This document shows, one piece after another, positions 2,955 through 48,373 of a stretch of DNA of 64,000 nt. Location: assembly GCA_020848735.1 (NCBI GenBank), contig JADLHO010000170.1:1-64000 (forward strand), in the 5' to 3' direction. The notes under the pieces are model-generated. The model searched no databases. It was not told where the DNA came from and saw only the letters and a list, made by a program, of their open reading frames with translations. The first letter of the stretch is position 1. Every line of letters begins with the position of its first letter. A program made the translations under genes and the position numbers. This DNA comes from Planctomycetota bacterium. GTDB lineage: Bacteria; Planctomycetota; UBA1135; UBA2386.

Positions 2955-5165
2955 TCAGCGCACCTGCACGTGCATGCCGGCCGAGTTCACGAGCCCCAGC
3001 GCGTTCGCCGAGGGATCGATCCAGAGCCATTGCAGGTAGAGGTCGCCGATGAAGGCCGGCGCGTCGTTCAGCGGGATGTAGAGGATGGCGAGGCCCGCGC
3101 CGTTCGTCGGGGCGGAGAGCGTGAGGAGCGGGTCGGTCAGCATCACGCAGCCCGTCATGCCGATGACGTCGAGGGGCAGGTTGGTCGGCCCGATGCCGAT
3201 CGAGACGTAGCCCACCGAGTTGGCGGGGAGACCCTGCGCACTCACGTTGTAGAACTGGCTGCCCGCGAAGGGCGGATGACCGTCGCCGAGCACGGCATTG
3301 GAGCAGGAGCTGCCGTAGACGCTCGCCTGCGCGTCCTGCGCGTACTGGAACGTGCGGTGGTAGAGCACGTGGCCGGAGCCCGCGCTGGAGAACGCGACGT
3401 AGCCGGCGCTGAAGGTCGGCCGCTGCCCGCTGGGGAAGCTGCCGTCGAAGCAGACGAAGGGATCGAGGACGCCGACCGAGCTGCCCGTGCTGAAGAGCTC
3501 CTGCGACTCCACGACGCCACCCTGATAGCCGAGCCGTGCGACGCGGGCCGTGCGGAGCGGCGTCGAGGAGGTGCTCGTCTGCCAGGTCAGCGCCCAATGC
3601 GACTGCGTCGAATAGTCGTAGGCGAGTTCGCCGTTGGCGACGGTCGTGAGGAGACCGACCGACGAGACGGTGCGGACCGTGCCCGGGCTCACCGAGCCGG
3701 TGCTGATGTCGACGCGCTGGGCGCGCACGCGACGGCGCACGGTCAGCGAGTCGAAGTCGGTCCAGGTCGCGAGGAAGCGGCCGTTGTCGCCATCGACCCG
3801 CGGCGAGCCTGCCCCGGCCGGTGCGCCGATCGGGCCGATCGCATCGACGAGCAGGCTCGGGTGGACGTGGTAGGCCGTGCTCCCGTTGGTGTCGTCGGAG
3901 AGGAGCACGCACCAGGCCGAGGTGCCCGAGGCCGAGCGGCTGAGGGCCCATTGGTCGGTCGCGCGGACGATGTTGCGCGTCGAACCGAGCGCGACCGCCA
4001 CGGCGTCGATGACCTGCAGTTCCACACCGCCCGCATTGCCGCTCACCATCAGGCCCTCGTCGCCGCGGCGCCGACCGCCGACCTTCGGCGCCCGCGTGCC
4101 GGCGGTCCCGAACAGCAGCGTCCCCGGGGTCGGCGACGCATTGATCGTCACGACCTGCACGCGGGCCGCCGTGGTCGAAGTCGTCGGGAAGAAGCGCTCG
4201 AAGGCGACGAGCCATCGCCCGGCAGAGGCGACCTCCGCGGAGTCGACGCTGCGCGTCGACCAGCTCGTCGTCACGTCCTGGAAGATCAGCGGGCCGCCGG
4301 TGCCGTCCTCACGACACGCCGAGGCCCACATGTCCTGATCGGTCGTGGTGGTCTGCACCACCCACGCGTTGATCGCGAAGTTGGAGAAGGCCCCGGTCGA
4401 GCCGCACCAGGTCACGTCGGTCACGGCCGAGTTGCTCCCCACGACCCCGACCGCAGCGGTCAGCGGATCGATGGTGAGCGGATACACGGCCGCGGCGACG
4501 AAGGCCGCCGGGACGTGGAGGCGGATGCGCTCCCCATCGAAGCTGCTCGCCACGGGACTGCGCTTGCCCGCGGCGTCGAACGCGAGGGCCTCGCCGTAGC
4601 GGATCCGCTCCTGGCTGCCGAGGCGGAACGCGATCTCGCCGACGCGCGGTTCGCGACGTTCGGCCTGCAGGTTCGTGTCGAGGCGCCCGGTCACGACGAG
4701 CTCACCGTCGATCCCGGGGTGCCGATCCAGGACGAAGCTCTGCTCGACGCCGTCGATGCGTACGTCGTAGACCTCGCGCAGGGCGACCCCCGATCCGGAG
4801 GCGTCGGCCCCGGCCCCGAACTCGGTGACGTGCCGCTCCGGCGTCCAGCGCGTGCGCGCCTCGCCGAGCGCGAGCTGCTTGCCGCCAACGACGAGCGACT
4901 CCGTGGTCCAGCCCAGGCGCGGGTGCTCGGCCAGGTCCGCGGCGTAGGCGTAGAAGCGGAAGCCGTCGTGGAAGGACGCCTTCCAGGTCGGACCGGCCGA
5001 CCAGAGTCCATAGGCGCCGCCGACCGGGTCGTCGGGCTGCGTATGGATCGGCGCGAGATGGCGGCCGCTTTGCGGCGAGCGCTGCTCGGCGGGGGAAGGC
5101 GACTGCGAGACCGCGCCCGCGGCGAGGCCGGCGAGCGCGACGATGGGAAGGAACCGGGTATTCAT
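2955..5165 (-). CDS. Secreted beta-propeller-like protein, tandem paralog 1
   Basis: A 736-residue exported protein with a signal peptide at residues 1-20. The conserved N-terminal part holds HTQPDDPVGGAYGLW and WKASFHDGFRFYAYAADLAE, then AVYPLTIDPLT, a motif that often precedes propeller or Ig-like regions in exported bacterial proteins. A middle region repeats W-containing strands (RWLVAFERFF, GRFLATWTD, HWALTWQTS) that look like propeller blades. Residues about 617-736 form the C-terminal tail shared with other exported proteins in this window (LDVIGMTGCVML ... YLQWLWIDPSANALG). It is a clear duplicate of the gene just upstream (5234-7426). No enzyme motif is visible. The ATG at 5165 gives a clean signal peptide; the open frame upstream does not. 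Confidence 0.82.
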   Translation of the reverse strand: MNTRFLPIVALAGLAAGAVSQSPSPAEQRSPQSGRHLAPIHTQPDDPVGGAYGLWSAGPTWKASFHDGFRFYAYAADLAEHPRLGWTTESLVVGGKQLALGEARTRWTPERHVTEFGAGADASGSGVALREVYDVRIDGVEQSFVLDRHPGIDGELVVTGRLDTNLQAERREPRVGEIAFRLGSQERIRYGEALAFDAAGKRSPVASSFDGERIRLHVPAAFVAAAVYPLTIDPLTAAVGVVGSNSAVTDVTWCGSTGAFSNFAINAWVVQTTTTDQDMWASACREDGTGGPLIFQDVTTSWSTRSVDSAEVASAGRWLVAFERFFPTTSTTAARVQVVTINASPTPGTLLFGTAGTRAPKVGGRRRGDEGLMVSGNAGGVELQVIDAVAVALGSTRNIVRATDQWALSRSASGTSAWCVLLSDDTNGSTAYHVHPSLLVDAIGPIGAPAGAGSPRVDGDNGRFLATWTDFDSLTVRRRVRAQRVDISTGSVSPGTVRTVSSVGLLTTVANGELAYDYSTQSHWALTWQTSTSSTPLRTARVARLGYQGGVVESQELFSTGSSVGVLDPFVCFDGSFPSGQRPTFSAGYVAFSSAGSGHVLYHRTFQYAQDAQASVYGSSCSNAVLGDGHPPFAGSQFYNVSAQGLPANSVGYVSIGIGPTNLPLDVIGMTGCVMLTDPLLTLSAPTNGAGLAILYIPLNDAPAFIGDLYLQWLWIDPSANALGLVNSAGMHVQVR

Positions 5166-5167
5166 GA

Positions 5168-5206
5168 TGCGACGTGCGATCCGGGCAGCGCCCGGCGCAC
5201 GTCGCA
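5168..5206 (-). promoter_or_regulatory. Long hairpin directly before the paralog 1 start codon
   Basis: Bases 5168-5178 and 5196-5206 are perfectly complementary (11 bp), enclosing a second 6-bp stem (5181-5186 with 5190-5195), a two-base bulge and an AGC loop. The base of the hairpin is two nucleotides from the ATG at 5165. It could be a 5'-end stabiliser, a translation-limiting leader structure, or a terminator for the upstream paralog, although no T-run follows. Confidence 0.5.
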
Positions 5207-5233
5207 GCGCACAGGATTGTCGGCGGCTTTTCT

Positions 5234-7426
5234 TCAGCGCACCTGCACGTGCATGCCACGCGAGTTCACGAGGCCGAGCGCATTGGCCGAGGGATCGATC
5301 CACAGCCACTGCAGGTAGAGGTCGCCGATGAAGGCCGGCACGTCGTTCAGCGGGATGTAGAGGAGTGCGACGCCGGAGGCGTTCGTCGGGGCGGAGAGCG
5401 TGAGGATCGGGTCGGTGAGCATCACGCAGCCCGTCATGCCGATGACGTCGAGGGGGAGGTTCGTCGGGCCGACACCCACGGAGACGTAGGCGATCGAGTT
5501 CGCCGGCAGGACGCTCGCGTTGATGTTGTAGAACTGGCTTCCCGCGAAGGGCGGGTGACCGTCGCCGAGCACGGCGTTCGAGCACGAGCTGCCGTAGGTC
5601 GTCGCCTGGGCGTCGGGCGCGTATTGGAACGTGCGGTGGAAGGCGTTGTAGCCGGCGATCGCCTGGGTGTAGGCGGTGTAGCCGCAGCTGAAGCTCGGGC
5701 GCGTGCCGACGAGCAGATTGCCGTTGAAGCAGACGAAGGGGTCGATCCCGTCGACGGTCTGCGTGGTGGAGTAGAGCTCCTGCGACTCGACCGCTCCGCC
5801 CTGGTAGCCGAGGCGCGCCACGCGGGCGGTGCGCGTCAGCGAGGTCGAGGAGCTCGTGGTCCAGGTCACCGCCCAATGCGACTGGGTCGTGAAGTCGTAG
5901 GCGACCTCGCCATTGGTGAGGCCGTTCAGGAGCGAGACCGACGAGACCGTGCGCACGGTGCCGAGCGTGAACGTCGTGCCGGAGACGTCGAAGCGCTGGG
6001 CGCGCACGCGCCGCAACTGGGCCGCGGTGCTCAGATCGGTCCAGGTCGCGAGGAAGCGGCCATTGTCGCCATCGACCTGGGGCAGGCCGGCGCTGTTCGG
6101 CGCACCGAGATTGCCGCTGACGACGTGGATCGGGGTCGTGGCCGTCGAGGCGATCAGGTGGGCAGACGTGCTCCCGTTGGCGTAACCCGTGAGCACGCAC
6201 CAGGCCGAGGTGCCCGAGGCGGCGCGGCTGACCGACCAGCGATCGATGATCCCGGTGATATTGATCGTGCCCGCGAGCGCGACGCTGGCACAGTCGACGG
6301 TCTGCAGCCCGACGCTGAGGCCCCCGCCGTAGACGAGCAGCGCCACGGTGCCGTCGCGGCGCCCGCCGATGCGGGGCGCGATGGAGCCCGACGCGGCGAA
6401 GAGGGTCGTGCCCGAGTTGGCCGGCTGATACGCGATGTCGAGGACCTGCACGCGCGCCGCGATCGTGCTCGACGAGGCGAAGAAGCGCTCGAACGCGAAG
6501 ACCCAGCGGTTCGTCGCGACGACCTCCGTGGAGTCGATGGTTCGGGTCGACCAGGAGTTCGTCACGTCCTGGAAGGCATTGTGGCCGGTGCCGCCCGCCT
6601 CGGTGCAGGTGTAGGCGACGAGGTCCTGGTCGCTGGCCGAGGTCTGGACGATGAAGCCCGTGATCGCGGTCGTCGAGCCGACGAGCGTGCTGCCCGTCCA
6701 GGTCATCGCGAGGATCTTGGCATTGCTGCCGGCGAAGGTATGGACGGACGTGAGCGGGTCGATCGTGAGCGGATAGACGGCCTCGGCCACGAAGGCGGCC
6801 GGCACGTGCAGGGCGATGCGCTCGCCATCGAAGCTCGTCGCCACGGGCGTGCTGCGGCCGATCGCGTCGAAGGCCAGGGCCTCGCCATAGCGGATGCAGT
6901 CCTCGCCGCGGAGACGGAACTCCAGGGCACCCACGCGCGGTGCCTGCGCTTCGGCGCGGAGGTTGGTGTCGACGCGACCCGTCACGACCAGGTCACCCGC
7001 GAGCGCGGGGCGCAGGTCCAGCACGAAGCGCTGTTCGACGCCGTCGGCACGCACCTCGTAGACCTCGCGGAGCGCCGCGTACTCGGTGACGTGGCGGTCG
7101 GCGGTCCAGCTCGCACGCCCTTCGCCGAGCGGCAGGTCCTGGCCGCCGACGCTCAGCGACTCCGTGTTCCAGCCGAGCCGCGGGTGCTCCGCGAGCTCGG
7201 CGGCGTAGGCGTAGAAGCGGAAGCCGTCGTGGAACGAGGCCTTCCAGCTCGGACCCGCGGTCCAGACCCCGTAGGCGCCACCGATCGGATCGTCGACCTG
7301 GGTGTGGATCGGCGTCGGAGAACGCAGAACGGACGCGGCGGACGTCGGGGCCGGCGAGGGCTCCTGCGATCGCGCGGCGGAGAGCGCCGCGAGGGTCGCG
7401 GCCGTGACGGTGATGAGCGTGCGCAT
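5234..7426 (-). CDS. Secreted beta-propeller-like protein, tandem paralog 2
   Basis: A 730-residue exported protein with signal peptide MRTLITVTAATLAALSAARS. It matches its downstream neighbour along the full length: N-terminal HTQVDDPIGGAYGVW, AVYPLTIDPLT near residue 220, propeller-like strands (GRFLATWTD, HWAVTWTTS) and the same 120-residue tail (611-730). The 3' ends of the two genes are also highly similar in DNA, with identical runs of about 30 bases, so the duplication is recent or maintained by gene conversion. An AGAGGA Shine-Dalgarno-like sequence lies eight bases before the ATG at 7426. The function is unknown; a surface-exposed or extracellular structural protein is inferred. Confidence 0.82.
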   Translation of the reverse strand: MRTLITVTAATLAALSAARSQEPSPAPTSAASVLRSPTPIHTQVDDPIGGAYGVWTAGPSWKASFHDGFRFYAYAAELAEHPRLGWNTESLSVGGQDLPLGEGRASWTADRHVTEYAALREVYEVRADGVEQRFVLDLRPALAGDLVVTGRVDTNLRAEAQAPRVGALEFRLRGEDCIRYGEALAFDAIGRSTPVATSFDGERIALHVPAAFVAEAVYPLTIDPLTSVHTFAGSNAKILAMTWTGSTLVGSTTAITGFIVQTSASDQDLVAYTCTEAGGTGHNAFQDVTNSWSTRTIDSTEVVATNRWVFAFERFFASSSTIAARVQVLDIAYQPANSGTTLFAASGSIAPRIGGRRDGTVALLVYGGGLSVGLQTVDCASVALAGTINITGIIDRWSVSRAASGTSAWCVLTGYANGSTSAHLIASTATTPIHVVSGNLGAPNSAGLPQVDGDNGRFLATWTDLSTAAQLRRVRAQRFDVSGTTFTLGTVRTVSSVSLLNGLTNGEVAYDFTTQSHWAVTWTTSSSTSLTRTARVARLGYQGGAVESQELYSTTQTVDGIDPFVCFNGNLLVGTRPSFSCGYTAYTQAIAGYNAFHRTFQYAPDAQATTYGSSCSNAVLGDGHPPFAGSQFYNINASVLPANSIAYVSVGVGPTNLPLDVIGMTGCVMLTDPILTLSAPTNASGVALLYIPLNDVPAFIGDLYLQWLWIDPSANALGLVNSRGMHVQVR

Positions 7427-7543: not shown

Positions 7544-9532
7544 TCAGTCCCGGGTGATCCGCAGGGCCAGGCCCCCGCCCGACCCGACGCGCACGCGCAG
7601 CACCTCGCCGGCGCTCACCGTGCGCTCCTCGACGGCCAGGCGGTTGGGATCGCCGTCGACCGCGTCGCCATCGCGCCAGAGCCGGAGCCGGTGCTCACCC
7701 TCGCCCAGGAACTGCAGCGGCACCGTGAGCTCGCGCGCCTCGCCCGCAGCGATCGCGCCGAGCCACCAGTCCTCGCCCTTGCGGCGCGCGGTGATGAGCA
7801 GCCGGCCGATCGCGGCATCGAGCACCCGGGTCTCGTCCCAGTAGGTCGGGACCGCGCGCACGAAGTCGAAGCCCGGCTGGTCGCGGTAGGCCGCGGGGTA
7901 GTCGGCGACCATCGGCGAGGGATTGTCGAGCACGACGTAGAGGGCGAGCTGGTGCGCGCGCGTGCCCAGCACGTTGGGTGCGATGCCGCGGGGCGCGAAG
8001 TCCTTCGGCAGCACCGCGCGGAAGCCGCCGAGGTGGTAGTCCATCGGTCCGGCGACGAGGCGCGTGAACGCCACCCGCAGCGTGTGCTCGGGCGTGCAGC
8101 GCGCCGACCACTTGAGGTACTCGAGATTGAGCGAGCCCTCGTGGTTCATCAGGTGCGGGAACGTGCGTTGCCAGCCGCTGGGCTTGTACATGCCGTGGAA
8201 ATGGACCAGCACGCGATGCCGCGCCGCGGCGCGGAGCACGGCCTCCGCGAACTCGACGGTGTCCTGGTCATCGCGGTCGAGGAAGTCGACCATCACGCCG
8301 GCCCAGCCGAGGCGGGCCAACGCCGCGAAGACCGCGTCTTCGCGACCGCGCACGACTCCATGGTGGACCCAGGTCCAGAGGCGCACGCCGCGCGCCGCGG
8401 CGTAGGCCGAGATCGCGGCCAGATCGAAGTCGGCCCGCGGCCGCGTCGCATCGGCGCTCGGATCGGGGAAGAGGCCCTTCTTCGACTGCACGTACCAGGG
8501 CGTGTCGGTCTCATCGGCGACGAGCGCGTGGAAGGCGATCTCGTTCGCCGCACACCAATCGATGTGCCGGCTCGCGGACGCCAGCGAGAGAGTCGGCTCC
8601 TCGCGTTCGGCCTCGAAGAGGTAACCGTTCCACCACGGCCAGGTGAGCTTGCCCGGACGCACCCAGGTCGCATCGAAGTCCGGCGGCTCACAGAGGCAGA
8701 ACAGGGTCTGGGACTCCAGCAGCGCGCCGAGGCGATCGGCGACGAGCACGACGCGCCAGGGGCTCGCGGCGGGCAGGGGACGCGCGACGATCGCGTCGCC
8801 CTCGCGCGGCGCGAACGCGGCGGCGAGTTCGCGTGACTCGCCGTCGCGTCGCAGCGACATCCCCGCCCAGCGCACGAGCGCGGCCTCGGTGATCGAGAGC
8901 ACCGGCCCGGAGTCCCGCGTGAGCGTGAGCGGCACGTCGAGGAGCTGTCCGGCGGGCAGTTCGGCGAACGGCGTCTCGCGCACCTCGTGCTCGTGCGAGG
9001 TGCGGAAGTGCTCGAGGAACTGCGTGTGGACGACGGGCTCGCCGGCGATCCCGAAGCTCGTGGACTCCGCGCTCAGCCGCAGCTCCGAGTGCCCGGGCGA
9101 CGCGGGCAGCTCGTAGCGGAAGGCGATGGCGTCGTCGTAGGCGCGGAGCACGAGGACCACGGGCTGGCGCTCCGCGGCGCGGCAGTTGACCCGCGCCTCG
9201 GCGAAGTGATCGCGCGCCTGCGCGGCCTTGCCGAAAGGCACCAGCACGAGCTCGTCGTGCGTGCGCCGCTCGAGCTCGCCCGCGGCGGCGCCGGCGAGCA
9301 GTTCCCCGTCGCCTTCGACCGCGAGACCCAGGCGCCCGGCGTCGAGCAAGGGCTTGCCGTCCAGCGCCAGCGACCAGCGCGGTGGCGCCGCGGTGCCCGC
9401 CGCGGGGAAGGCGACACGCAGCGCGATCCGCCCATTGGGCGAACTCAGCTCGATGGCCTGCGGCGCGCGGTCCTGCGCGGAGGCGAGCGGTGCGAACGCG
9501 GCAGCGACCAGCCCGAGGACGAGGGGACGCAT
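7544..9532 (-). CDS. Exported glycoside hydrolase family 97 (alpha-glucosidase/alpha-galactosidase type)
   Basis: A 662-residue protein with signal peptide MRPLVLGLVAAAFAPLASA. The order matches GH97 (SusB-like) enzymes: N-terminal beta-sandwich (IELSSPNGRIALRVAF), a central (beta/alpha)8 barrel with the hallmarks GVMVDFLDRDDQDTVEF, FHGMYKPSGWQRTFPHLM and NHEGSLNLEYLKW, and a C-terminal beta-sandwich. GH97 enzymes act on alpha-linked glucosides or galactosides by inverting or retaining mechanisms depending on the subgroup; the subgroup was not resolved here. The gene starts one base after the lexA stop codon, so the two are almost certainly co-transcribed, which is an odd pairing. Confidence 0.9.
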   Translation of the reverse strand: MRPLVLGLVAAAFAPLASAQDRAPQAIELSSPNGRIALRVAFPAAGTAAPPRWSLALDGKPLLDAGRLGLAVEGDGELLAGAAAGELERRTHDELVLVPFGKAAQARDHFAEARVNCRAAERQPVVLVLRAYDDAIAFRYELPASPGHSELRLSAESTSFGIAGEPVVHTQFLEHFRTSHEHEVRETPFAELPAGQLLDVPLTLTRDSGPVLSITEAALVRWAGMSLRRDGESRELAAAFAPREGDAIVARPLPAASPWRVVLVADRLGALLESQTLFCLCEPPDFDATWVRPGKLTWPWWNGYLFEAEREEPTLSLASASRHIDWCAANEIAFHALVADETDTPWYVQSKKGLFPDPSADATRPRADFDLAAISAYAAARGVRLWTWVHHGVVRGREDAVFAALARLGWAGVMVDFLDRDDQDTVEFAEAVLRAAARHRVLVHFHGMYKPSGWQRTFPHLMNHEGSLNLEYLKWSARCTPEHTLRVAFTRLVAGPMDYHLGGFRAVLPKDFAPRGIAPNVLGTRAHQLALYVVLDNPSPMVADYPAAYRDQPGFDFVRAVPTYWDETRVLDAAIGRLLITARRKGEDWWLGAIAAGEARELTVPLQFLGEGEHRLRLWRDGDAVDGDPNRLAVEERTVSAGEVLRVRVGSGGGLALRITRD

Positions 9533-12128: not shown

Positions 12129-14680
12129 GCGGCAGCTCGGCTTCGAGCGATCGAGAGGATCAGCTCCAGGCGCTCGTCGCGACGGCGCTGGAGGCGCTCG
12201 AGCGCGGCGAGGAGCTGGACCCCGCGGAGCTCTGCGCACAGTGGCCGGACCTCGCCTCGGAGCTCGAGGCGGTCCTGGGACTCGGCGGGAACCTGCGCGC
12301 ACTCCACGTCGCGAGCCTGTCCGGCGAGACCCGGCTCGGCGAGACCATCGCCGGCCGCTATCGCATCGACGCCTGGCTCGGCCGCGGCGCCTCGGGCAGC
12401 GTGTTCCGCGCGCACGATCGCGAGCTGCGACGCGACGTCGCCCTCAAGCTGTTGCACGCGGACACGCTGATCGGACCGGCCGCGGAGGCGCGCTTCCTCC
12501 GCGAGGCCGAGCTTCTCGCGCAGCACGAGCACCGCCATCTCGTGCGCGTGTACGACCGCGGCTGCAGCGAGGACGGCACGCACTTCCTCGTCACGGAGCT
12601 GCTCGTCGGGATCGGGCTCGCCGAGGTGCTGGAGCGGATGCGCGCCGCGATGCCGGACGGCCCGAGCGCGAGCGGCTACGCCGATGCCTCGTGGCTCGCC
12701 GCGCGATTGCCGCAGGCGACGCTCGAGCGCAGCACGCTCCGCCAGTGCGTGCGCTGGATCGCCGAGCTCGGCGACGGCCTCGCCGTCGCGCATGCCAAGG
12801 GCGTGTTCCATCGCGACGTCAAGCCATCGAACGCGTTCGTGCGGGCCGATGGCAGCGCCGTGCTCCTCGACTTCGGGATCGCGGCGCGCGTCGGCGACGC
12901 CTCGCTCACGCTCCAGACGACCGTGCTCGGAACGCCGTGGTACATGGCGCCCGAACAGGCGCGGGGTCGCGTCGAGCCCACGCCCTCGCTCGACGTCTAC
13001 GGACTCGCCGCGACGCTCTACCACCTCGTCACCTTGCAGCCGCCCCACGGCGCGGGCCGCTCGGCGGAGGACCTCGAGGCGGTGCTCGCCGCCGCACGCG
13101 AGGGCGAGACGGTCTCTGCGACACGCTGGCATCCGGGACTGCCGCGCGATCTCGAGGCGATCCTCGATCGCGGCCTCGAGCCCGAGCCCGGCCGGCGCTA
13201 CGCCGACGTGCCGGCGCTCGTCGCGGACCTGCGCGCCTTCCTCGACCACCGCGCGGTCGCGGCGCGGCCGATCGGTGCGCTCGGACGAGCGTGGCGACGG
13301 ACGCGCCGACGCCCTGCGCGCGCACTCGCGACGGGGCTCGGGATCACGAGCCTCGCCCTGTTCGCGATCGCGTGGCCCCTCGCCTCCCGGGCGCGCGCGG
13401 AGGCCGACGCGCGCGAGGGCGAAGAGCTGCGTGCCCGGCTCGCCGCCGATCTCTGCATCGAGGGCTGGGCCGATCAACGCGCGCTCGTGCCGACCGCCGA
13501 GCGCGACTCGGCGATCCGCGAGCGCGATCGGCTCCTCGAACTCGACCCCGACGATCTCGCGATCCGTCTCCTGCGCGCGAGCGAGCGCCTCGACGCCGGC
13601 GAGCGCGCGGCGGCAGCCGCCGACTACGAGGCCATCGCGCGACGCACCGACAGTCCCTATCTGCGCGCCGTCGCCGCGCGCCATGCCGCCGCCGATTCGT
13701 CGCTCGCGGGCATCGCGGCCGTGCAGCTCGGCGGGCTGCCAGAGCCGCATTCGCCACAGGAGCGCTTCGTCGCCGGCTTCCATGCGCTCCGTGCGCGCGA
13801 CATCGAATCGGCTCTGACCTGGCTCGACGGCGCATCCGAACTGCTGCACGCCCGCGACCTGCGGCTGCTCGCGTTGCTCGGCGCGCGGCGCTGGGACGAC
13901 GCCGCACACGAGGCCCACGCGCTCGAGGTCCGCTACGGGAGATCGACGGCTCGCACGCGGCACACGCTCGCGGCGGCGGCGCTCGGCCAGCGCGAGTACG
14001 AGGCGGCGGCGACCTACGCACGCGACGCTCTCGCCCTGCGCCCCGATCGACACGGCCCCTGGAACAACCTCGGCTACGCGCTGCTGCGCCTCGCGAAGCT
14101 CGACGAGGCCAGGACGAGCTTCGAGCGCGCCGTCGCGATCCGCCCCTGGTTCGACAACAGCCGCGCGGGTCTCTGCCAGACGCTGCGCTCGCTCGAGGAC
14201 TTCACGGCGGCGCGCTCCGAGGCGCAGAAGCTCGGCGCGGTCTGGTGGCGTGAGTGGGAACTCGCGAACGTCGACCTCGCGGAGGCGATGGCCGCCCATC
14301 GCGCCGGCCGCATCGAGAACTGTCGTGAGCTGGCGAACGCCGCGGCGCTCCGCTTCGCCCACGTGCGCGACGATGCGTCCCCGGAGAACCAGAAGCGGAC
14401 GGCCGCACCGGCCTCCATCGCGTTCGCGGAGGCGCTGGCCGGCGAGCGCATCGCCGAGGCGCTCGAGCCCTTCCTGCGCGCCCTGCGCAGCGAGCCGCGC
14501 AATCCGAGCAGCCTGTTGAACCTCTGCGACTTGCTCGAGGGCGGGAGCGTCGATGGCGCCACGCTCGACCATCTGCGCCTCTGGATCTGCGAGCTCGCAC
14601 TCGACGCATCGCCCGACGACCTGCGCATCCAGGCGGCGAGGACGCGAGTCCTCGACTCGCTCCGTTCGAGGACCCGATGA
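12125..14680 (+). CDS. Membrane-anchored Ser/Thr protein kinase with TPR sensor region
   Basis: An 851-residue Hanks-type kinase. A short acidic N-terminal segment (residues 1-70) precedes the kinase domain: glycine loop GRGASGSVF (86-94), Lys108 in VALKLL, HRD with catalytic Asp231, DFG at 249-251 and GTPWYMAPEQ, all intact. One membrane helix follows at about residues 400-420. The remaining 430 residues, predicted to be outside the membrane, contain tetratricopeptide-like repeats (for example WNNLGYALLRLAKLDEARTS). The kinase is translationally coupled to the ECF sigma factor upstream and to a secreted protein downstream by 4-base overlaps, so a likely job is to sense an envelope or extracellular cue and phosphorylate the sigma factor. 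Confidence 0.9.
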   Translation: MSGSSASSDREDQLQALVATALEALERGEELDPAELCAQWPDLASELEAVLGLGGNLRALHVASLSGETRLGETIAGRYRIDAWLGRGASGSVFRAHDRELRRDVALKLLHADTLIGPAAEARFLREAELLAQHEHRHLVRVYDRGCSEDGTHFLVTELLVGIGLAEVLERMRAAMPDGPSASGYADASWLAARLPQATLERSTLRQCVRWIAELGDGLAVAHAKGVFHRDVKPSNAFVRADGSAVLLDFGIAARVGDASLTLQTTVLGTPWYMAPEQARGRVEPTPSLDVYGLAATLYHLVTLQPPHGAGRSAEDLEAVLAAAREGETVSATRWHPGLPRDLEAILDRGLEPEPGRRYADVPALVADLRAFLDHRAVAARPIGALGRAWRRTRRRPARALATGLGITSLALFAIAWPLASRARAEADAREGEELRARLAADLCIEGWADQRALVPTAERDSAIRERDRLLELDPDDLAIRLLRASERLDAGERAAAAADYEAIARRTDSPYLRAVAARHAAADSSLAGIAAVQLGGLPEPHSPQERFVAGFHALRARDIESALTWLDGASELLHARDLRLLALLGARRWDDAAHEAHALEVRYGRSTARTRHTLAAAALGQREYEAAATYARDALALRPDRHGPWNNLGYALLRLAKLDEARTSFERAVAIRPWFDNSRAGLCQTLRSLEDFTAARSEAQKLGAVWWREWELANVDLAEAMAAHRAGRIENCRELANAAALRFAHVRDDASPENQKRTAAPASIAFAEALAGERIAEALEPFLRALRSEPRNPSSLLNLCDLLEGGSVDGATLDHLRLWICELALDASPDDLRIQAARTRVLDSLRSRTR

Positions 14681-16125
14681 ACCGTCCCATCACGCGAACC
14701 ATCGCCCTGACCACGACGCTGCTGATCCCGTGCGGCGTCGCCCGCGCGCAGGAGGCCCATTCCGACGGCGGCGTGCTCGCGATCGCACACGGCTTCTCGG
14801 TCGATGGCGCGAGCGCCGTGCCGAATGCCGGACCGCAGTCGCTGCTCTTCGCACGTTCCGAGTTGTCTGCGGCACGACCCGACGACTGGCCGATCCCGCC
14901 CGGCCTGCCCGACTTCACGACGGTGCTCGACGGACTCGCGTTGGACGTCGACGCGTTCTCGATCGGCTACGACTACATCCAGTCGACACCGCTCGGCGTG
15001 GCGATCATCCCGCCCGGCCATTGGGCCGGCGTGACCTTCTCGGTGACGCGCGCGACGGTCGGCAGCGGTGGCGGCCGCATCGCCGAAGAGGTCGTGAGCC
15101 CCGGTGGGGCAGCCGGCGACGTGTTCCTCTACGTGCTCCCCGACAGCGCGCTGCCACCCGAACTCGTCGACCGCACGATGCGCAATCAGGACAGCCGCGA
15201 GATCAACATCGATGCACCGGGCGCGCCCGGCGACATCGACGCGCACGACATCTACGTCAGCCTCTTCTTCCACGAGAACCCCTGGCTCGTCCCGGCGCTG
15301 CCCTTCGTGTCCGTGTGGTTCTCCGTGCGCGATGCCTCGGTGCCCGCGGTGCCCGCCGCGTGGTGGGGCGCTGCACCCGCGAGCGGCGCGACCATCCTGC
15401 GCCGTGACTGGGTCGCCGGAGCCTGGTCGACGCCGTACCCCGCGTTCACGCCTGCCGATCTCGGACTCGAGGCGCTCGAGGACGTCGACGCGCTCGCGGT
15501 CGACGTGTTGCGCAGCCGGATGCTCTTCTCGACGACGCGACCGGCGGCCACGCCCGGTGCGCCGCTGCGCGACCCGGTGCTCTTCCATCAGATCGGCACG
15601 CTCGGCCACGTCGTCTACAAGACGGCGCGACTCACTCCGGTCAGCACGCGACTCGGCCTCGACGCCGCGGGCGGCATCGACGACGTGGACGGCATCTGCG
15701 CGCTCGATCCGGGTCCCGGCAGCCAACCGCGGCTCGATCGCCTCGTGGGCACGCCGCGGCAGGCGCTCGCGCCGTCCCTGCCGAGCCACCTCACCGCGAG
15801 CGTGTTGCGTCGGCTCGCCGCCTCGGGCACGCATGAGGAGTTCGTGAGCTACGCGAGCGGCTGGCCCCAGCCCGGGGTGCCGAGCAGCGGTGTGATCGCC
15901 TCGCTCGTGGCGTTGGGTGCGCCGAACAACCCCTACGTGGTCTGGTCGAACGCGCTGCGGCCGGATCCCGGCAGCCCCTACGTGGGCTTCGGCGGCCACC
16001 CGGCGCGAGCGACGCTCGCGATCCCGAACACGCCGAGCCTGCTGGGGCTCGACGTGTTCTTCCTCTGGGCGGCGCTCGATCCCACGCGGCTCGCGTTGAG
16101 CCTGCCGGTGGGGATCAAGATCTGA
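14677..16125 (+). CDS. Secreted protein of unknown function in the sigma/kinase operon
   Basis: A 482-residue exported protein with a signal peptide ending near residue 24 (CGVARAQ). The body is beta-rich and Pro/Asp-rich, with YDYIQSTPLGVAIIPPGHW, VWFSVRDASVPAVP and the segment GGIDDVDGICALDPG. No catalytic motif is recognised. Residues about 373-482 resemble the C-terminal tail of other exported proteins here (ATLAIPNTPSLLGLDVFFLW, then AALDP). Its ATG overlaps the kinase stop (ATGA), so the three genes form one translational unit; it may be the ligand, the sensed component or a target of the sigma/kinase system (inference). Confidence 0.75.
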   Translation: MNRPITRTIALTTTLLIPCGVARAQEAHSDGGVLAIAHGFSVDGASAVPNAGPQSLLFARSELSAARPDDWPIPPGLPDFTTVLDGLALDVDAFSIGYDYIQSTPLGVAIIPPGHWAGVTFSVTRATVGSGGGRIAEEVVSPGGAAGDVFLYVLPDSALPPELVDRTMRNQDSREINIDAPGAPGDIDAHDIYVSLFFHENPWLVPALPFVSVWFSVRDASVPAVPAAWWGAAPASGATILRRDWVAGAWSTPYPAFTPADLGLEALEDVDALAVDVLRSRMLFSTTRPAATPGAPLRDPVLFHQIGTLGHVVYKTARLTPVSTRLGLDAAGGIDDVDGICALDPGPGSQPRLDRLVGTPRQALAPSLPSHLTASVLRRLAASGTHEEFVSYASGWPQPGVPSSGVIASLVALGAPNNPYVVWSNALRPDPGSPYVGFGGHPARATLAIPNTPSLLGLDVFFLWAALDPTRLALSLPVGIKI

Positions 16126-16162: not shown

Positions 16163-18241
16163 TCAGGAGCCGAGGCGGAGCTTGCCGCCGTTCGACAGCA
16201 AGGCACCGAGCGTGTTGGCGCCCGGGACGAGCACGACACCCTGCGCGTTGAGGATCGCGCCGGTGAGCGCGCTCACGTTCGGGATCGTGATCGACACCGA
16301 GCTCGTCGGCGTCGTCGCTGCCATCGGGAACCACGACTCGATCGAGGTGCGGAGCACGCAGCCCGGCGCGCCGATGGCGTCGAGGCTCACGGCCTGCTCG
16401 ATCACGCCGATGTTCATCGCCGCACCGATCACGCCGGCAGGGACGTTGTTCACGCCGAGCTGGATCGTCGTGCCGAGGCGCGGCGCCGCGCTCGCGAAGA
16501 TCGACAACGGCGTGCCGCCGCCACTCGCGAAGGGCACGCGCGCGCTGAGGTCGCTCGAGCCCGGATCGTTCGCGACGGCACCGCCGGAGTAGCCGGTGAG
16601 GCCGTCGAGCGGCGTGACCGTCGTGTAGCTCAGGAGGATGTTGCCGTTGCTGAAGATCTGCGCCTGGAAGGTGTTGAGGTTGCCCGTGCCGTACTCCGGC
16701 ACGCCCGCCCAGGTCACGACCGCCTTGCCGGGGAAGGTGTCGAAGTAGACGTCGCCGGCCGAGGCGGGATTGAGGTCGTCCCAGAACACCGCGAGGCGCG
16801 CGCCCTGTGCGAGGAACTCCGCGCTGCTCTCCGTGAAGTCGCTGGCCCAGCCGCCGCTCACGAGGCCGATCCAGCCGTTCGAGTCGACGTCGATGGCGTT
16901 CGTCGTGCCGACACCCGGCAGCGAGACGCTGAAGCCGAGCGCGAGCCCGGACGCGAGCTGATCGTCACCGAGGTTGAGGCCCGCGGCATAACCGGCCTCG
17001 AAGCAGTTGCTCGCACAGACGGAGACGTTCCACCCGCCGCTGCCGTTCGGGCTCAGGAGGAAGCTGCGACCGCTCAGGTCGTTGCCCGCCGAGAAGAGCT
17101 CGTAGAAGGTCGGCGGAATCGGGCAGCCGGCGCCGTAGGTGCTGAAGGTCGCGGGCGTGCCACCGCCGGCTCCGCCGGCCGCGGCGATCGCCGCCTGGAG
17201 ATCGCTGCGGTCGATGCGCGTGCCGCTGTTGCAGCCGCCGCTCGCCGTGCAACCACCGTGCGTGTGGATGCCGATCGCGTTGCCGGTGTTCTCGTGGAGG
17301 ATCGGCGAGCCGGAGTTGCCGCCGGTCGTGTCCGTCGCGTAGCAGAGCGAGGTCGCCGCGATCGTCGAGAGCGTGCCGACGTGCGTCGTCTGCGCCTGGT
17401 TGCGCACGCCCGTCGCGGTGCCGTAGCCCGTGATGCGGATGTTCTGGCCCGCGGTCGAACCCGGAACCGCGCCGAGCGTGTACCACTGGTTGCCGTTGCG
17501 CTGGGTCGGGAGCTGGCCGTGGCCCGTGTTCGGCAGCACGCGGCAGACGCGCCAGTCGGAGCCGACGCCGGCATTGAGGCCCGCCAGCTCGTTGTAGGGG
17601 TACTGGTCGGCCACGGCCGCGCGCACGATCGTGCCACCGGCCGTCGACTGCGGGACGTTGAACTCGATGATGCGCGTGCCGGTCGTGGTGCAGTGACCGG
17701 CGGTCAGCATGAGATCGGGTCCGATCATCCAGCCGGTGCAGCCGAGCCAGAGACGACCACCGCGGACGTCGGTGCTGAGCACGCGGTCGTCGACGCTGCC
17801 GCAGATCGAGCCCGGGACCACGGGCATGTCGATGCCGCGCGTGTAGCCGGTGACGAGCACGCGGTTGCCGCTGGTCTTCGGCGCCGCGACGAGTTCGAGG
17901 AGCAGGTCGTTGCCGTTGAAGAGCGCCGAGCCGTGACCCCAGTCGAGGACCGCGCGGCCGTCGAGCTCCTGGACCTCGCCGTCGACGGCGGCCCGGATGC
18001 GGAGGAAGGAACCCTCCGGCAGGCTGACGAAGCGGTCATCGAAGTGGAGCTGCATCCAGCTCGTGCTCGCCGGCAGGAAGCGATGGCTGAAGACGACGGC
18101 CGGCCGGTCGCCGGCGTTCGCCAGGTAGCCGGAGTCGACGTTCGCGTTCACGCGCAGCGACGGCGGCGGGGAAGGCGACTGGGCGACGAGCTGGGCCGCG
18201 GTCAGGGCGGCGAGACCGATGGAGAAGGAGAGACGGCTCAT
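16163..18241 (-). CDS. Exported trypsin-like (S1) serine protease with C-terminal tail domain
   Basis: A 692-residue exported protein with signal peptide at residues 1-20 (MSRLSFSIGLAALTAAQLVA). The S1 catalytic triad is complete: His183 in LTAGHC, Asp229 in GVGSDWRVC and Ser310 in TTGGNSGSPIL. Paired cysteines in this region suggest disulfides. Residues about 395-560 form a beta-rich domain resembling nidogen-like modules (SNGWIGLVSGGW, AVFWDDLNPASAGDVYFDTF). Residues 584-692 carry the C-terminal tail shared with other exported proteins here (LDAIGAPGCVL ... GANTLGALLSNGGKLRLG). It is likely an extracellular or surface endopeptidase. The start is set by the signal peptide. Confidence 0.88.
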   Translation of the reverse strand: MSRLSFSIGLAALTAAQLVAQSPSPPPSLRVNANVDSGYLANAGDRPAVVFSHRFLPASTSWMQLHFDDRFVSLPEGSFLRIRAAVDGEVQELDGRAVLDWGHGSALFNGNDLLLELVAAPKTSGNRVLVTGYTRGIDMPVVPGSICGSVDDRVLSTDVRGGRLWLGCTGWMIGPDLMLTAGHCTTTGTRIIEFNVPQSTAGGTIVRAAVADQYPYNELAGLNAGVGSDWRVCRVLPNTGHGQLPTQRNGNQWYTLGAVPGSTAGQNIRITGYGTATGVRNQAQTTHVGTLSTIAATSLCYATDTTGGNSGSPILHENTGNAIGIHTHGGCTASGGCNSGTRIDRSDLQAAIAAAGGAGGGTPATFSTYGAGCPIPPTFYELFSAGNDLSGRSFLLSPNGSGGWNVSVCASNCFEAGYAAGLNLGDDQLASGLALGFSVSLPGVGTTNAIDVDSNGWIGLVSGGWASDFTESSAEFLAQGARLAVFWDDLNPASAGDVYFDTFPGKAVVTWAGVPEYGTGNLNTFQAQIFSNGNILLSYTTVTPLDGLTGYSGGAVANDPGSSDLSARVPFASGGGTPLSIFASAAPRLGTTIQLGVNNVPAGVIGAAMNIGVIEQAVSLDAIGAPGCVLRTSIESWFPMAATTPTSSVSITIPNVSALTGAILNAQGVVLVPGANTLGALLSNGGKLRLGS

Positions 18242-42859: not shown

Positions 42860-42926
42860 CGCCTGCCACGCTCGGGTGCCCTGCCTCCCGACTCCGCTCC
42901 CTGCTCCATCCGTTTCGAGGACCGAC

Positions 42927-44657
42927 ATGAGTTTCGTCCGTTCGCCCGCCCTGCTCCTCGGTGTCGCGCTCGTCGCATTGCCGAGCCTCGCGACCTCCCA
43001 GGTCGTGATCAACGAGTTCCAATATGACGACGAGAGCACCGACGATCGCGAGTTCGTCGAGCTCTACAACGCCGGCACCTCCGCGGTGGACATCTCCGGC
43101 TGGACGCTCGAGGCGTACGACGAGAACACGCCGAACGCCTTCTACACGATCCCGCCGAGCACCATCCTCGCACCCGGGGCCTTCTGGGTCCTCGGCGCCT
43201 CGACGGTCGCGAACGTCAACCAGGTGGTCGGCATCCAGGACCTCTGGCAGAACGACCAGGAGACGCTGGAGCTCTTCGACGCGTCGCACGTGCGCCAGGA
43301 CTTCGTGTGCTACGAGGTGAACAAGGCCCGCTTCGTGCTGCCGGCCTACGCCGAGGGCGAGGGTCTCTGGGGCAACTTCCAGAGCAACCTGCACACGTCG
43401 ATCATCGAGTCGAGCTGGTCGCGTCTGCGCGACGGCTACGACACGAACGACAACGGCCGCGACTTCCGCATCATCACGCAGACGCCGGGCGCCTCGAACA
43501 ACCGCGCGAACCTCGCGCCGCTCTTCGAGAACTTCGACGCGATCGCCGTGGACTCGCCGATCCCGAACTGGGGTGGCTCGTTCAAGCCGCCGTTCGCCAT
43601 CGACCCGACGCAGCTCAGCGCGCAGAACCCGAACCCGATCCCCGCGTCGCCGGTCGGCGGCAACGCGATGATCATGTGGGACAGCGTCGGCGGCGGTAAC
43701 TACTCGATGCTGCTCACCGACGTCTCGGACGAGATCGACTTCGAGGCCTACGTCTACTTCGACGCGACGCCGCGTCCCGCCGGCGAGTACGAGACCTGGT
43801 CGCTGGTCGTCCAGGGCGGCAGCTGCTCGTTCCACAATCACCCCGACCCGACCGGCTCGCTCGGCGGCGCCGTTCCCTTCACCGCGAACGGCAACACGGG
43901 CGTGGGCTGGATCTACCACGTCACCTCGTCGGGTGGCACGCTCTTCCTCGTCGACCACAACAACGGTGGCTGGGGCGCCACGGCGCAGTCGCAGCCGACC
44001 ATCCTCGGTCAGATCACGATCACGAGCGGCGTGAACGACGGCTGGCAGCGCCTGCGCCTGCTGGCGACCAAGAACCTCGCCGAGGGCTACTTCGGCGGCA
44101 CGCTCGGCCAGCTCGACGGCACCCGTTTCGCGGCCCCGATCGTCGGCAAGCCGGGTGGCATCGCCGTCGGCTACCGCGAGCTCATGGTCAACAACGGCGC
44201 CACGCGGCCGTTCACCGCCGACTTCGTGGTCGTCCGCACGAACACCGCCTCGGTGTCGAACTTCGGCAATGCGACCCCGACCTCGACCGCCACGCCGTCG
44301 ATCGCGGCGGACAGCTTCCCGATCCTCGGCAACGTGAACTTCGGGGTCAGCGCCTCGAACGTCCCGGCGAACTCCGCGATCGCGATGCTGATCGGTTTCT
44401 TCCAGATCATCCCGCCGACGGACCTGACGATCCTCGGCGCGCAGCCCGGCTCGTCGATCCACGTCACGCCCGACCTCGCGGTCACCGTGCTGACGAACGG
44501 CTCCGGCGTCGGCTCGCTGCCGCTCGCACTCCCGGCCACGCCGGCACTCGCGGGAGCACCGCTCTTCTTCCAGGCCTTCGCGATCGACCCGGCTCTGCCC
44601 TATCCGGCGCTGCCGATCGCCCAGACCGGCGGCCTGAAGTGCGTGCTCGGCAACTGA
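42927..44657 (+). CDS. Secreted lamin-tail-domain protein with C-terminal tail domain
   Basis: A 576-residue exported protein; the signal peptide ends near residue 24 (LPSLATS). Residues about 25-150 form a lamin-tail domain (VVINEFQYDDESTDDREFVE, then LYNAGTSAVDISGWTLE), an Ig-like fold common in secreted bacterial proteins. The middle is beta-rich, similar to LamG-type sandwiches (DGWQRLRLLATKNLAEGYFG). Residues 462-576 are the tail shared with other exported proteins here (FPILGNVNFGVSASNVPANS, later LPATPALAGAPLFFQAFAID). No enzyme site is visible; a surface or extracellular matrix role is inferred. A consensus promoter upstream and a strong hairpin downstream make it monocistronic. Confidence 0.85.
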   Translation: MSFVRSPALLLGVALVALPSLATSQVVINEFQYDDESTDDREFVELYNAGTSAVDISGWTLEAYDENTPNAFYTIPPSTILAPGAFWVLGASTVANVNQVVGIQDLWQNDQETLELFDASHVRQDFVCYEVNKARFVLPAYAEGEGLWGNFQSNLHTSIIESSWSRLRDGYDTNDNGRDFRIITQTPGASNNRANLAPLFENFDAIAVDSPIPNWGGSFKPPFAIDPTQLSAQNPNPIPASPVGGNAMIMWDSVGGGNYSMLLTDVSDEIDFEAYVYFDATPRPAGEYETWSLVVQGGSCSFHNHPDPTGSLGGAVPFTANGNTGVGWIYHVTSSGGTLFLVDHNNGGWGATAQSQPTILGQITITSGVNDGWQRLRLLATKNLAEGYFGGTLGQLDGTRFAAPIVGKPGGIAVGYRELMVNNGATRPFTADFVVVRTNTASVSNFGNATPTSTATPSIAADSFPILGNVNFGVSASNVPANSAIAMLIGFFQIIPPTDLTILGAQPGSSIHVTPDLAVTVLTNGSGVGSLPLALPATPALAGAPLFFQAFAIDPALPYPALPIAQTGGLKCVLGN

Positions 44658-44702
44658 GAGCCCACTCCCGAGGAAGCGTGCGTCGAGCGCGCTGATTCGG
44701 CC

Positions 44703-44730
44703 ACGGGCGCGATCCTCGGATCGCGCCCGT
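44703..44730 (+). terminator. Perfect 12-bp hairpin after the lamin-tail gene
   Basis: ACGGGCGCGATC (44703-44714) and GATCGCGCCCGT (44719-44730) form a perfect 12-bp stem with a CTCG loop, 45 bases after the stop codon. No T-run follows, so termination would be non-canonical, or the hairpin protects the 3' end. Confidence 0.6.
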
Positions 44731-44764
44731 TGCACGTACGCAGCCCGCGTGCTCCAAACGCGAC

Positions 44765-46469: not shown

Positions 46470-46582
46470 GACGGCACAGAGGATCCTCCGGGGACGCTCG
46501 GACGTCCAATCGCGGGTCTTCCCCGCCGCGGCTCCGCGCCGGGAGCCGGGTACCCTGCGATCCCAAGCACCCGTCTCCGGCG

Positions 46583-46588
46583 TAGGGT
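46583..46588 (+). promoter_or_regulatory. -10-like TAGGGT upstream of the metalloprotease gene
   Basis: TAGGGT lies 60 bases before the ATG at 46649; a second candidate, TACCCT, occurs about 30 bases further upstream. Neither has a clear -35. Confidence 0.2.
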
Positions 46589-46648
46589 CCGACCCCTGCG
46601 ACGGCGAATCCGCCCGCCGCTCCGTCCCTGCCGTCCCGCTCGCGAACG

Positions 46649-48373
46649 ATGCTCCAACCGAACCTCCTGACGACCGCCACCCTCGCGGTCTGCGCCGCCT
46701 TCGCCGCCCGTTCCGTCTCCGCGCAAGCTCCCACACCGCGACCCGCACCCCAGTGGTTGCTCAACGCGTACGACGTGAGCGACGGCACCGTGCAGGACCT
46801 GTCGATCCCGTCCCTGCGCGAGCGCTTCCAGTTCCAGGTCGTGCTCGGCGACGCCACCGTCACGGTCGACCTCGACCCGAACGACATCCGCACCCTCGAT
46901 TTCGCGCTCTTCGTCGACGACGGCACGCGCCTCACCCGCCTGCCCACGCCGGCGGCGGTCACGTTCATCGGCAAGGTGCTCGGCCACCCGCACTCGACGG
47001 TCGCCGCGAGCATCGTCGACCGCAAGCTGCAGGCACTGGTCCGGCTCGATGACGACGCGAGCCTCATCTGGGGCATCGAGTCGGTCGCCGCCGTCGATCC
47101 GCAGGCGCCGATCGCGGATCACCTGGTGTACCGCAGCGACGACTCGACCCGGCAGCAGGCTCATTGCGGCACGACCCACCCGCATTGGCACGCCATCGGC
47201 GGGCCGGGGACCGACGCCCGCAAGGAAGCCGAGATCGCGTGTGATGCCGATCTCGAGTTCTACCAGCGCAATGGCTCCAACGTCGTGCAGACGACGAACA
47301 CGATCACGTCGATCGTCAACGGCATCGACGTGATCTACCAGCGCGACGTCGACGTGCAGTACGTGATCCGCCAGATCATCGTGCGCACGACCGCGGTCTA
47401 CGTGAACAACGACATGGGTGCGCTCCTGGGCGAGTTCGCCTCCCGCTGGAACGGCAACCACGGCGGTGTCCCGCGCGACCTCGCGCACCTCTTCACGGGC
47501 AAGGGCGGCTTCGGTGGCGTGGTGGGCATCGCCTACGTCGGCGTCGTCTGCGACCTCGGCAGCGCCTACGGCGTGTCGAAGGCGTTCTCGAACTTCACGA
47601 CGAACGTCGGACTCGTCGCGCACGAGACCGGTCACAACTGGAACGCCCCGCACTGCGACGGCATCAACCCCTGCTACATCATGTGCTCGGGCCTCGGCGG
47701 CTGTAATGGCAACCTGACGCTGTTCGACCCGAGCACGGCCGGCGTGATCACGTCGTTCAAGAACTCGCGCGGCTGCCTCGCGACCCCGCCCGTGGTCCCC
47801 GTCATCGGCGGCATCTCGCCCAGCAGCGCCGCCGTGCTGCCCAGCAGCGCCATCACGCTCACGGGCACCGGCTTCTCCGGGGTGACAACGGTCACGGTCG
47901 GCACCACGCCGGTGACGCCCTACCAGGTCACCGACACGCAGGTGCGCTTCCAGTCGCCCCTGCCGACGACGCTCGGGACGGTCGCCGTACGAGTGACCAA
48001 TCCGGCGGGCACGAGCAACGCGGTCAACCTCACGCTGAACGCTGCCAATCCACCGGTCTACCTCGCGCCGGCGCTCGCGACCGGCGGCGTCGTGCTCCCG
48101 CTCCAGTGGGCCGGCGATCCCAGCGACGTCTGCGTCCTGCTCGCCTCGTTCAACGACGCCACCACGATCCCGATCGGCGCGTTCAACCTGCTCGCCAACA
48201 ACTTCGTCCTCGCGGTGGCGCCGGCCGACAGCGTCGGCCACAAGGCGTTGGGCTACGCGATCCCGTCGATCTCGCTGTCGGGACTCGTGATGCGCTCGCA
48301 GGTGGTGTTCCTCGACGAGACGTCGCTCGGCCTCAACTCGATCTCGTCGATCATCCTCACGACGTTCCTCTGA
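46649..48373 (+). CDS. Exported M12B-like metalloprotease with IPT/TIG domain
   Basis: A 574-residue exported protein with a signal peptide ending near residue 26 (ARSVSAQ). The N-terminal part has the reprolysin propeptide-like strand (RFQFQVVLGDATVTVDLDPN). The catalytic domain carries the metzincin site HETGHNWNAPH (His325, Glu326, His329, His335) and a Met-turn (CYIMCSGLGG), typical of bacterial adamalysin-like (M12B) proteases. An IPT/TIG Ig-like domain follows (ISPSSAAVLPSSAITLTGTG). Residues about 474-574 are a divergent form of the C-terminal tail found in other exported proteins here. It is likely an extracellular zinc endopeptidase. Confidence 0.88.
   Translation: MLQPNLLTTATLAVCAAFAARSVSAQAPTPRPAPQWLLNAYDVSDGTVQDLSIPSLRERFQFQVVLGDATVTVDLDPNDIRTLDFALFVDDGTRLTRLPTPAAVTFIGKVLGHPHSTVAASIVDRKLQALVRLDDDASLIWGIESVAAVDPQAPIADHLVYRSDDSTRQQAHCGTTHPHWHAIGGPGTDARKEAEIACDADLEFYQRNGSNVVQTTNTITSIVNGIDVIYQRDVDVQYVIRQIIVRTTAVYVNNDMGALLGEFASRWNGNHGGVPRDLAHLFTGKGGFGGVVGIAYVGVVCDLGSAYGVSKAFSNFTTNVGLVAHETGHNWNAPHCDGINPCYIMCSGLGGCNGNLTLFDPSTAGVITSFKNSRGCLATPPVVPVIGGISPSSAAVLPSSAITLTGTGFSGVTTVTVGTTPVTPYQVTDTQVRFQSPLPTTLGTVAVRVTNPAGTSNAVNLTLNAANPPVYLAPALATGGVVLPLQWAGDPSDVCVLLASFNDATTIPIGAFNLLANNFVLAVAPADSVGHKALGYAIPSISLSGLVMRSQVVFLDETSLGLNSISSIILTTFL

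Follow-up and report, generated by a model that had tools for sequence, protein, structure and literature searches.

To our knowledge, little is understood of how planctomycetes move proteins over the outer membrane and deliver them to the cell surface. A sequence-only reading of a 64-kb stretch of a Planctomycetota genome (the window, meaning the whole stretch analysed) picked out six exported proteins that it described as unrelated in their N-terminal parts and similar in their C-terminal segment, here called the tail. The locus raises the question of whether the tail is one domain family, how far it extends beyond the window, and whether it delivers the proteins that carry it.

Tail carriers in the window

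The proteins and their tails are arranged in the window as follows.

2955..5165, minus strand: exported protein, 736 aa, with signal peptide and no detected Pfam domain; tail carrier and paralog of 5234..7426
2958..3338 (profile match 2961-3338), minus strand: C-terminal tail domain, ~126 aa; AlphaFold model with pLDDT 91.9
5234..7426, minus strand: exported protein, 730 aa; 64% identical to 2955-5165, its tandem paralog
5237..5614 (profile match 5240-5614), minus strand: C-terminal tail domain; 87% identity to the tail of 2955-5165
14677..16125, plus strand: exported protein, 482 aa, with a divergent tail
15766..16122, plus strand: divergent tail region; significant part ~15901-16110
16163..18241, minus strand: exported trypsin-like protease, 692 aa, with tail
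16166..16567, minus strand: C-terminal tail domain; profile match E 2.6e-33
42927..44657, plus strand: exported lamin-tail-domain protein, 576 aa, with tail
44244..44654, plus strand: C-terminal tail domain, by tail profile; AlphaFold model with pLDDT 95.7
46649..48373, plus strand: exported M12B-type metalloprotease with TIG domain; C-terminus unsupported as a tail-family member

The coordinates first read for the six genes are correct, with all starts reproduced by an independent simple gene caller, and we add that 2955-5165, 5234-7426 and 16163-18241 lie on the minus strand. A profile built from 31 tails strongly matches the four proteins in which the tail had looked clear (2955, 5234, 16163 and 42927; E 1.6e-36 to 2.6e-33). 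The two tails judged weaker fared differently. The 14677 protein can be counted in the family on a weak yet significant match (hhalign probability 91%, E 9e-7), and its C-terminus ranks 1 of 102 C-termini compared, 100 of which came from genes without a tail call. Two C-termini from such genes rank just under it, one of which (C170:64758-66047) a second profile also identifies as a weak tail. Membership of the 46649 protein is unsupported, its C-terminus scoring E 0.11, ranking 13 of 102 and being absent from the HMM hits. Nor are the six N-terminal parts all unrelated, since 2955 and 5234 are tandem paralogs with 64% identity overall, 59% in the N-terminal parts and 87% in the tails.

A C-terminal domain family across the genome

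The tail is a real domain family that is nearly always C-terminal. Its profile matches at least 150 places genome-wide, with the best 150 candidates scored; genome searches scored no more than the top 150, 69 or 10 candidates in each genome, so that counts are lower bounds. A 403-kb sample picked independently of tails, consisting of contig starts, many of them from short contigs, contained 18 tails and 0 reversed decoys, a pattern far beyond chance. Extrapolation from these 18 gives ~290 tails per genome (95% CI 171–455); the window genome is a MAG with 89.3% completeness and 6.92% contamination.

The match ends at most 7 residues before the stop codon in 135 of the 150 profile matches and 32–44 residues before it in another 11, leaving about four of 150 internal (C88, C201 and C7, with C54 appearing frame-broken). 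All 39 tails from 18 named loci end within 24 residues of the stop, as do 26/26 tails from other genomes within 5 residues, the latter taken from 18 stretches of 14 other genomes chosen for their profile matches. Two tails never occurred in one ORF (0/163 ORFs; 0/173 in a second set).

One tail family on many cargos

Clustering by sequence divides 146 N-terminal parts into 46 clusters and places 145 of their 146 tails in one. Thirty-four of the N-terminal clusters are singletons, and the two largest hold 44 and 41 of the 146 proteins. Among 816 strongly similar tail pairs, 546 lack any N-terminal similarity. A Pfam scan of 147 N-terminal parts, out of 148 before a single short one was dropped, identified proteases, FG-GAP and Kelch propellers, a sulfatase, a nuclease and cytochromes; the first 25 of 44 and first 25 of 40 families include S8, M14, M64, FG-GAP, Kelch, Vps10, LTD, sulfatase, endonuclease I and cytochrome c7. 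The tail is the more conserved part in 94 of 188 paralog pairs, and tails therefore evolve no slower than their cargo. The slower evolution expected of a recognition signal is absent, and nothing points to a recognition surface under unusual constraint.

Signal peptides on tail proteins

Profile hits are mostly signal-peptide proteins, not the cytoplasmic proteins that would speak against the export module first proposed: of 145 tail genes whose start is intact, 133 encode a signal peptide, and a simple in-house caller, used with an equally simple in-house gene caller, finds none in the other 12. The proportion is lower in neighbouring genes (139/271, P 2e-18) and in other genes of the 403-kb sample (99/237, P 1e-24), by Fisher tests that ignore common descent. 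With multi-membrane-span proteins excluded on both sides, the comparison is 131/145 tail genes against 79/237 other sample genes; within the sample itself, a signal peptide is present in 11/14 tail genes. These counts omit truncated genes (13 tail and 70 other; in the sample, 4 tail and 19 other). Because roughly one in two neighbouring genes likewise encodes a signal peptide, an export-rich genomic location accounts for part of the enrichment. Among signal-peptide proteins, lipoprotein signals are rarer on tail proteins than on other sample genes (7/131 vs 15/79, P 0.002) or neighbouring genes (7/133 vs 18/139, P 0.035), a deficit given little weight because the crude lipobox rule also fires on some probable ordinary signal peptides.

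Predicted fold and a conserved cysteine pair

AlphaFold models of the tails from the 2955 and 42927 proteins (pLDDT 91.9 and 95.7), ~126–138 aa in length and 29% identical to each other, are similar Ig-like β-sandwiches when compared without superposition, and the different folds that would have divided the family do not appear. Both models finish in a β-strand, with no terminal helix. Cys13 and Cys68 co-occur, with both present in 107 tails, neither in 13 and only one in 16 (P 1e-9), which suggests that they form a disulfide. Of 42 rows prepared, 37 were used in one analysis and 23 in another.

Foldseek searches against the PDB gave best E values of 1.2e-3 and 6e-3 for the two models, and the VIA structure search gave best Z scores of 8.3 and 8.1, among tied generic rows. 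Only generic folds were matched, namely those of adhesins, MG/Ig domains and some carbohydrate-binding domains. The predicted fold resembles Ig, alpha-2-macroglobulin MG and bacterial adhesin extender domains (Z ~8, ~2.5–3 Å over ~90–100 residues), but the match is to a generic fold at 5–20% identity in the listed rows, and function does not follow from it. T9SS CTD structures are not among the rows listed, a listing that excludes nothing.

Comparison with known families and sorting systems

Scans of 31 and 37 tails, two sets with 4 window tails in common, gave no convincing match in Pfam, NCBIfam or PDB-sequence families. The picture drawn from sequence alone, of secreted proteins that are otherwise unrelated but share a C-terminal module with no known sorting motif, holds up at an estimated 290 copies per genome in place of six.

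In its working the tail appears to be most like the C-terminal domains of type IX secretion, but it is not one by sequence. T9SS CTDs are described in PMC4804311 and PMC12618676 as C-terminal Ig-like β-sandwiches of weak sequence conservation on unrelated Sec-exported cargos. The tail shares this predicted architecture and diverse Sec-exported cargo with the type A CTD (TIGR04183 / PF18962 Por_Secre_tail), and differs in its somewhat larger size, its conserved cysteine pair, some internal copies and the lack of a profile match: T9SS CTD models (TIGR04183/TIGR04131/PF18962-type) match 0/31 tails at E ≤ 1 and 0/37 at E ≤ 0.1. PEP-CTERM proteins, according to PMC1569441, likewise comprise diverse signal-peptide proteins with a common C-terminus in many copies per genome. 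Unlike PEP-CTERM, the tail is modelled as a folded domain ending in a β-strand and not a transmembrane helix, 37 of 67 tail genomes lack an exosortase match, and the PEP-CTERM profile matches none of the 31 and 37 tails. The same two sets contain no Pfam or NCBIfam match to an LPXTG/sortase anchor, and the models lack a terminal helix. T9SS, PEP-CTERM and LPXTG are unsupported as the tail's sorting system by profile, model or genome tests.

The bacterial pre-peptidase C-terminal domain (PF04151, PPC) and the NCBIfam 'choice-of-anchor' domains resemble the tail in being placed at the C-terminal end of secreted proteins or close to it. PPC is separate from the tail and occurs in 2/77 cargo parts; choice-of-anchor D gives one weak, non-significant match in 37 tails (E 0.0088). 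Among the matches listed, the titles and abstract openings of open-licence planctomycete literature on sorting, secretion or exosortase contain no description of the tail domain.

Distribution and candidate partners

Tail homologs at E ≤ 1e-8 occur in 57 of 61 genomes of the order, the other four giving weak matches only, and in 67 of 392 genomes of the phylum. No partner protein was found among SprA_N and Por_Secre_tail in the 61 genomes or exosortase in the 392. SprA_N is matched in 0/61 genomes, by a search without a positive control (no control genome gave a match), and Por_Secre_tail in 1/61, by one match at E 5e-6. C25 peptidase, present in 20/61 genomes (16/47 tail-rich, 4/14 tail-poor), is unrelated to tail number. 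Exosortase is present in 43/47 tail-rich and 3/14 tail-poor genomes of the order (P 9e-7), an association absent across the 392 phylum genomes (30/67 tail genomes vs 128/325 others, P 0.42); no tail lies within the 19.9 kb surrounding the window genome's own exosortase (L220). On these grounds we reject exosortase as the tail's partner.

Possible roles of the tail

We infer that the tail serves in sorting, secretion or anchoring. We put at about even the chance that it is a folded, probably disulfide-stabilised Ig-like C-terminal delivery tag common to many Sec-exported proteins. Cargo would cross the inner membrane via Sec, the tail would fold in the periplasm, and a dedicated envelope or surface partner would recognise the folded tail, which would carry the cargo over the outer membrane and/or retain it at the surface, as a T9SS CTD does. 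A candidate route is secretin-based (T2SS-like); secretins were detected in all 61 genomes searched and so cannot discriminate tail-rich from tail-poor ones. The alternative candidate is an undescribed translocon or surface receptor. A delivery tag is disfavoured by the presence of the tail on only ~12% of the sample's signal-peptide genes (11/90), and by the frequent use of Ig-like domains for binding, not sorting; the internal copies count against a strict C-terminal signal, which would show none. The wider proposal, somewhat less likely than not, is that Planctomycetota own an undescribed T9SS-analogous export/attachment system, in which an outer-membrane or surface machine would read a folded Ig-like C-terminal tag on hundreds of proteins per genome.

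It is possible, if on balance doubtful, that the tail has no part in translocation and instead binds surface or matrix, as an anchor or carbohydrate-binding module that holds cargo to the cell's own coat, exopolysaccharide or a substrate after a general route out of the periplasm. Ig-like folds commonly bind, the generic PDB matches include adhesins, MG/Ig and some carbohydrate-binding domains, the cargo comprises extracellular-type enzymes and propellers, and internal copies are tolerated; a weak resemblance to choice-of-anchor D is seen in one tail of 37, and exosortase, an EPS-linked gene family according to PMC1569441, tracks tail-rich genomes within the order. That last link is gone phylum-wide, however, and a plain binding module would be expected more often in tandem or at either end of a protein than the 0/163 duplicated and ~4/150 internal tails allow. 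An ordinary structural or folding-aid domain, duplicated along with exported proteins and without a targeting role, would explain why tails diverge as fast as their cargo, and the N-terminal clusters of 44 and 41 point to many copies from whole-gene duplication; we consider it unlikely, as the 34 singletons and 46 clusters sharing one tail family indicate repeated joining of the tail to unrelated proteins, in nearly every case at one and the same end. A true type IX targeting domain, diverged past recognition in sequence, would account for the matching architecture of Sec signal peptide, C-terminal Ig-like β-sandwich of ~100–130 aa and unrelated cargos, but is very improbable given the SprA_N, Por_Secre_tail and CTD-model results, the indifferent spread of C25 peptidase, and the finding of T9SS only in Bacteroidetes in PMC4793230.

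Whichever role applies, the tail domain marks out many candidate cargo proteins, by estimate 290 per genome here, and does so in several lineages of the phylum. It provides a seed ready for HMM building and a fold predicted with confidence, which turn the matter into a testable question, namely what binds the tail, and it could help annotators to recognise probable extracellular proteins in which no other domain is known.

Tail-bearing proteins of the window

The sequence-only reading placed a similar C-terminal tail on six exported proteins with otherwise unrelated sequences. All six proteins are present, with the same starts from an independent simple gene caller, and three of them lie on the minus strand. 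The tail stands on five and is not supported on the sixth.

2955-5165: clear tail, tandem paralog of 5234-7426
5234-7426: clear tail, tandem paralog of 2955-5165
14677-16125: weak but significant tail (hhalign E 9e-7; rank 1 among 102 C-termini)
16163-18241: clear tail
42927-44657: clear tail
46649-48373: C-terminus at rank 13 among 102, not distinct from controls

Because the first two proteins are paralogs, the claim of unrelated cargos fails for that pair, and the window contains four independent cargos, counting the paralogs once beside a trypsin-like protease, a lamin-tail protein, and the protein at 14677. The same contig carries two further tail proteins outside the window, one weak (64758-66047, iE 6e-7) and one clear (76078-79074, iE 2e-20). 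Exported GH97, M1-like, and M14 enzymes in the window (7547-9532, 32325-34580, 59512-61080, and 61089-62813) have no tail match, so the tail is not universal among exported enzymes. Sigma-70-region (ECF-like) genes adjoin Ser/Thr kinase genes at 11661-14677 and 53895-57510; the former pair is located just upstream of 14677, the weak-tail gene.

Copy number and position of the tail

A single-tail query matched 74 places in the window's genome (E<=0.01), and a 31-tail profile matched at least 150 at the same threshold (best 150 of 447 first-look candidates). A sample drawn without regard to tails, for which two series each took one contig in fifteen and used its first 20 kb (or the whole), with the window's contig left out (36 stretches, 402,830 bases), contained 18 tail ORFs at iE<1e-3, against none among its reversed ORFs (best 0.073). 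Scaled to the genome, this corresponds to ~288 tails (95% CI 171-455).

The tail is overwhelmingly terminal. In the window's genome, 135/150 profile matches end within 7 residues of the stop, as do all 18 sample tails within 22 residues, 39/39 tails from 18 named loci within 24 (16 titled Planctomycetota or Planctomycetia, two 'bacterium' alone), and 26/26 within 5 in 18 stretches from 14 other genomes, chosen for their matches. Eleven of the 150 (loci L103, L140, L069, L138, L143, L135, L131, L064, L100, L148, and L123) end 32-44 residues before the stop, each followed by a similar extra segment that is possibly one more β-hairpin. The remaining four, on contigs C7, C54, C88, and C201, lie further inward. 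The C7 tail sits early in its reading frame, ahead of a region we take to be Vps62-like; the stretch after the C54 tail opens like what is presumably a calcineurin-type phosphoesterase, then reads as frame-broken, and just downstream a different frame contains a second match to the tail. C88 and C201 have other sequence downstream. Two tails never occurred in one ORF among those checked in the window's genome and the 18 named loci.

Export and cargo

The expectation that such proteins are exported was borne out: by a simple test, under which several negative tail genes look like misplaced starts, 133/145 tail genes with an intact start encode a signal peptide, compared with 139/271 adjoining genes and 99/237 other sample genes. 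With proteins having at least two further membrane spans uncounted, the figures are 131/145 versus 79/237; within the sample alone, 11/14 tail genes score positive (P 0.001). The excess is significant in all comparisons.

N-terminal parts of 146 proteins fall into 46 clusters, 34 of them singletons, whereas all but one of their tails group in a single cluster (145). A Pfam scan of 147 N-terminal parts found, among the families listed, FG-GAP (15), Kelch (13 with PF24681), and S8 (at least 6), with single or few cases of M14, M64, beta-lactamase (PF00144), sulfatase, endonuclease I, GHL10, LTD, PPC, LamG, Vps10, and multihaem cytochrome.

Conservation and predicted fold

Conservation is strongest mostly at glycines, prolines, and leucines, and also at C13 (79%), C68 (87%), Q108 (93%), and S/T124 (98%). 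The two cysteines co-occur far above chance (107 tails have both, 13 neither, and 16 are discordant; P 1e-9 by a test that ignores relatedness). A disulfide would fit this pairing and, if formed, would imply folding outside the cytoplasm. AlphaFold2 models of two window tails, 29% identical, reached pLDDT 91.9 and 95.7 and are alike by strand order (10 and 11 strands), in keeping with the proposed common fold. Among PDB structures, the matches listed are all of a generic kind, from Ig-like and macroglobulin-like domains (Foldseek E 1.2e-3 at best, Z at most 8.3).

The tail may also be new, as first suspected: in scans of 31 plus 37 tails none matched a Pfam, NCBIfam, or PDB-sequence entry convincingly, the nearest family being choice-of-anchor D (E 0.0088, 1/37 tails). 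Titles and abstract starts among the literature matches listed for planctomycete sorting, secretion, and exosortase contain no description of it.

Distribution and candidate machinery

In the order set, each of the 61 genomes (that of the window and those of 60 relatives) has a match at E<=1e-5, and 57 have one at E<=1e-8; G040, G044, G053, and G056 are doubtful, with no match at E<=1e-8 in the phylum search. Copies number at least 45-69 in each of 47 genomes, where 69 is the most that could be scored, and 1-9 in each of the other 14 (families f5 and f8). Two kinds of tail protein, with lengths near 560-600 and 614-621 residues, recur in f5 (L222-L232) and might be core cargo. Across the phylum, with the best ten candidates scored per genome, E<=1e-8 is reached in 67/392 genomes. 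Among the carriers with names are NC_groundwater_1891_Pr3_B-0.1um_70_9, Prado171, and Co_bin.47.

Exosortase occurs in 46/61 order genomes, in 43/47 tail-rich versus 3/14 tail-poor ones, but this link fails across the phylum (30/67 tail genomes versus 128/325 others).

Secretins are present in 61/61 order genomes, SprA_N of the T9SS in 0/61 (a search without a positive control), Por_Secre_tail in 1/61 (its Bacteroides control matched below the cut-off), and C25 peptidases in 20/61, unrelated to tail number. We consider it very unlikely that the tail is the targeting domain of a true but diverged T9SS. A structural domain with no further role is improbable, if somewhat less so. A pure binding or anchoring module, with which a generic Ig-like fold is compatible, is a serious possibility and the second likeliest reading. 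The likeliest, to which we give about an even chance, is that the tail is a delivery or attachment tag. A similar line of reasoning led to PEP-CTERM (PMC1569441), whose partner came to light through phylogenetic profiling.
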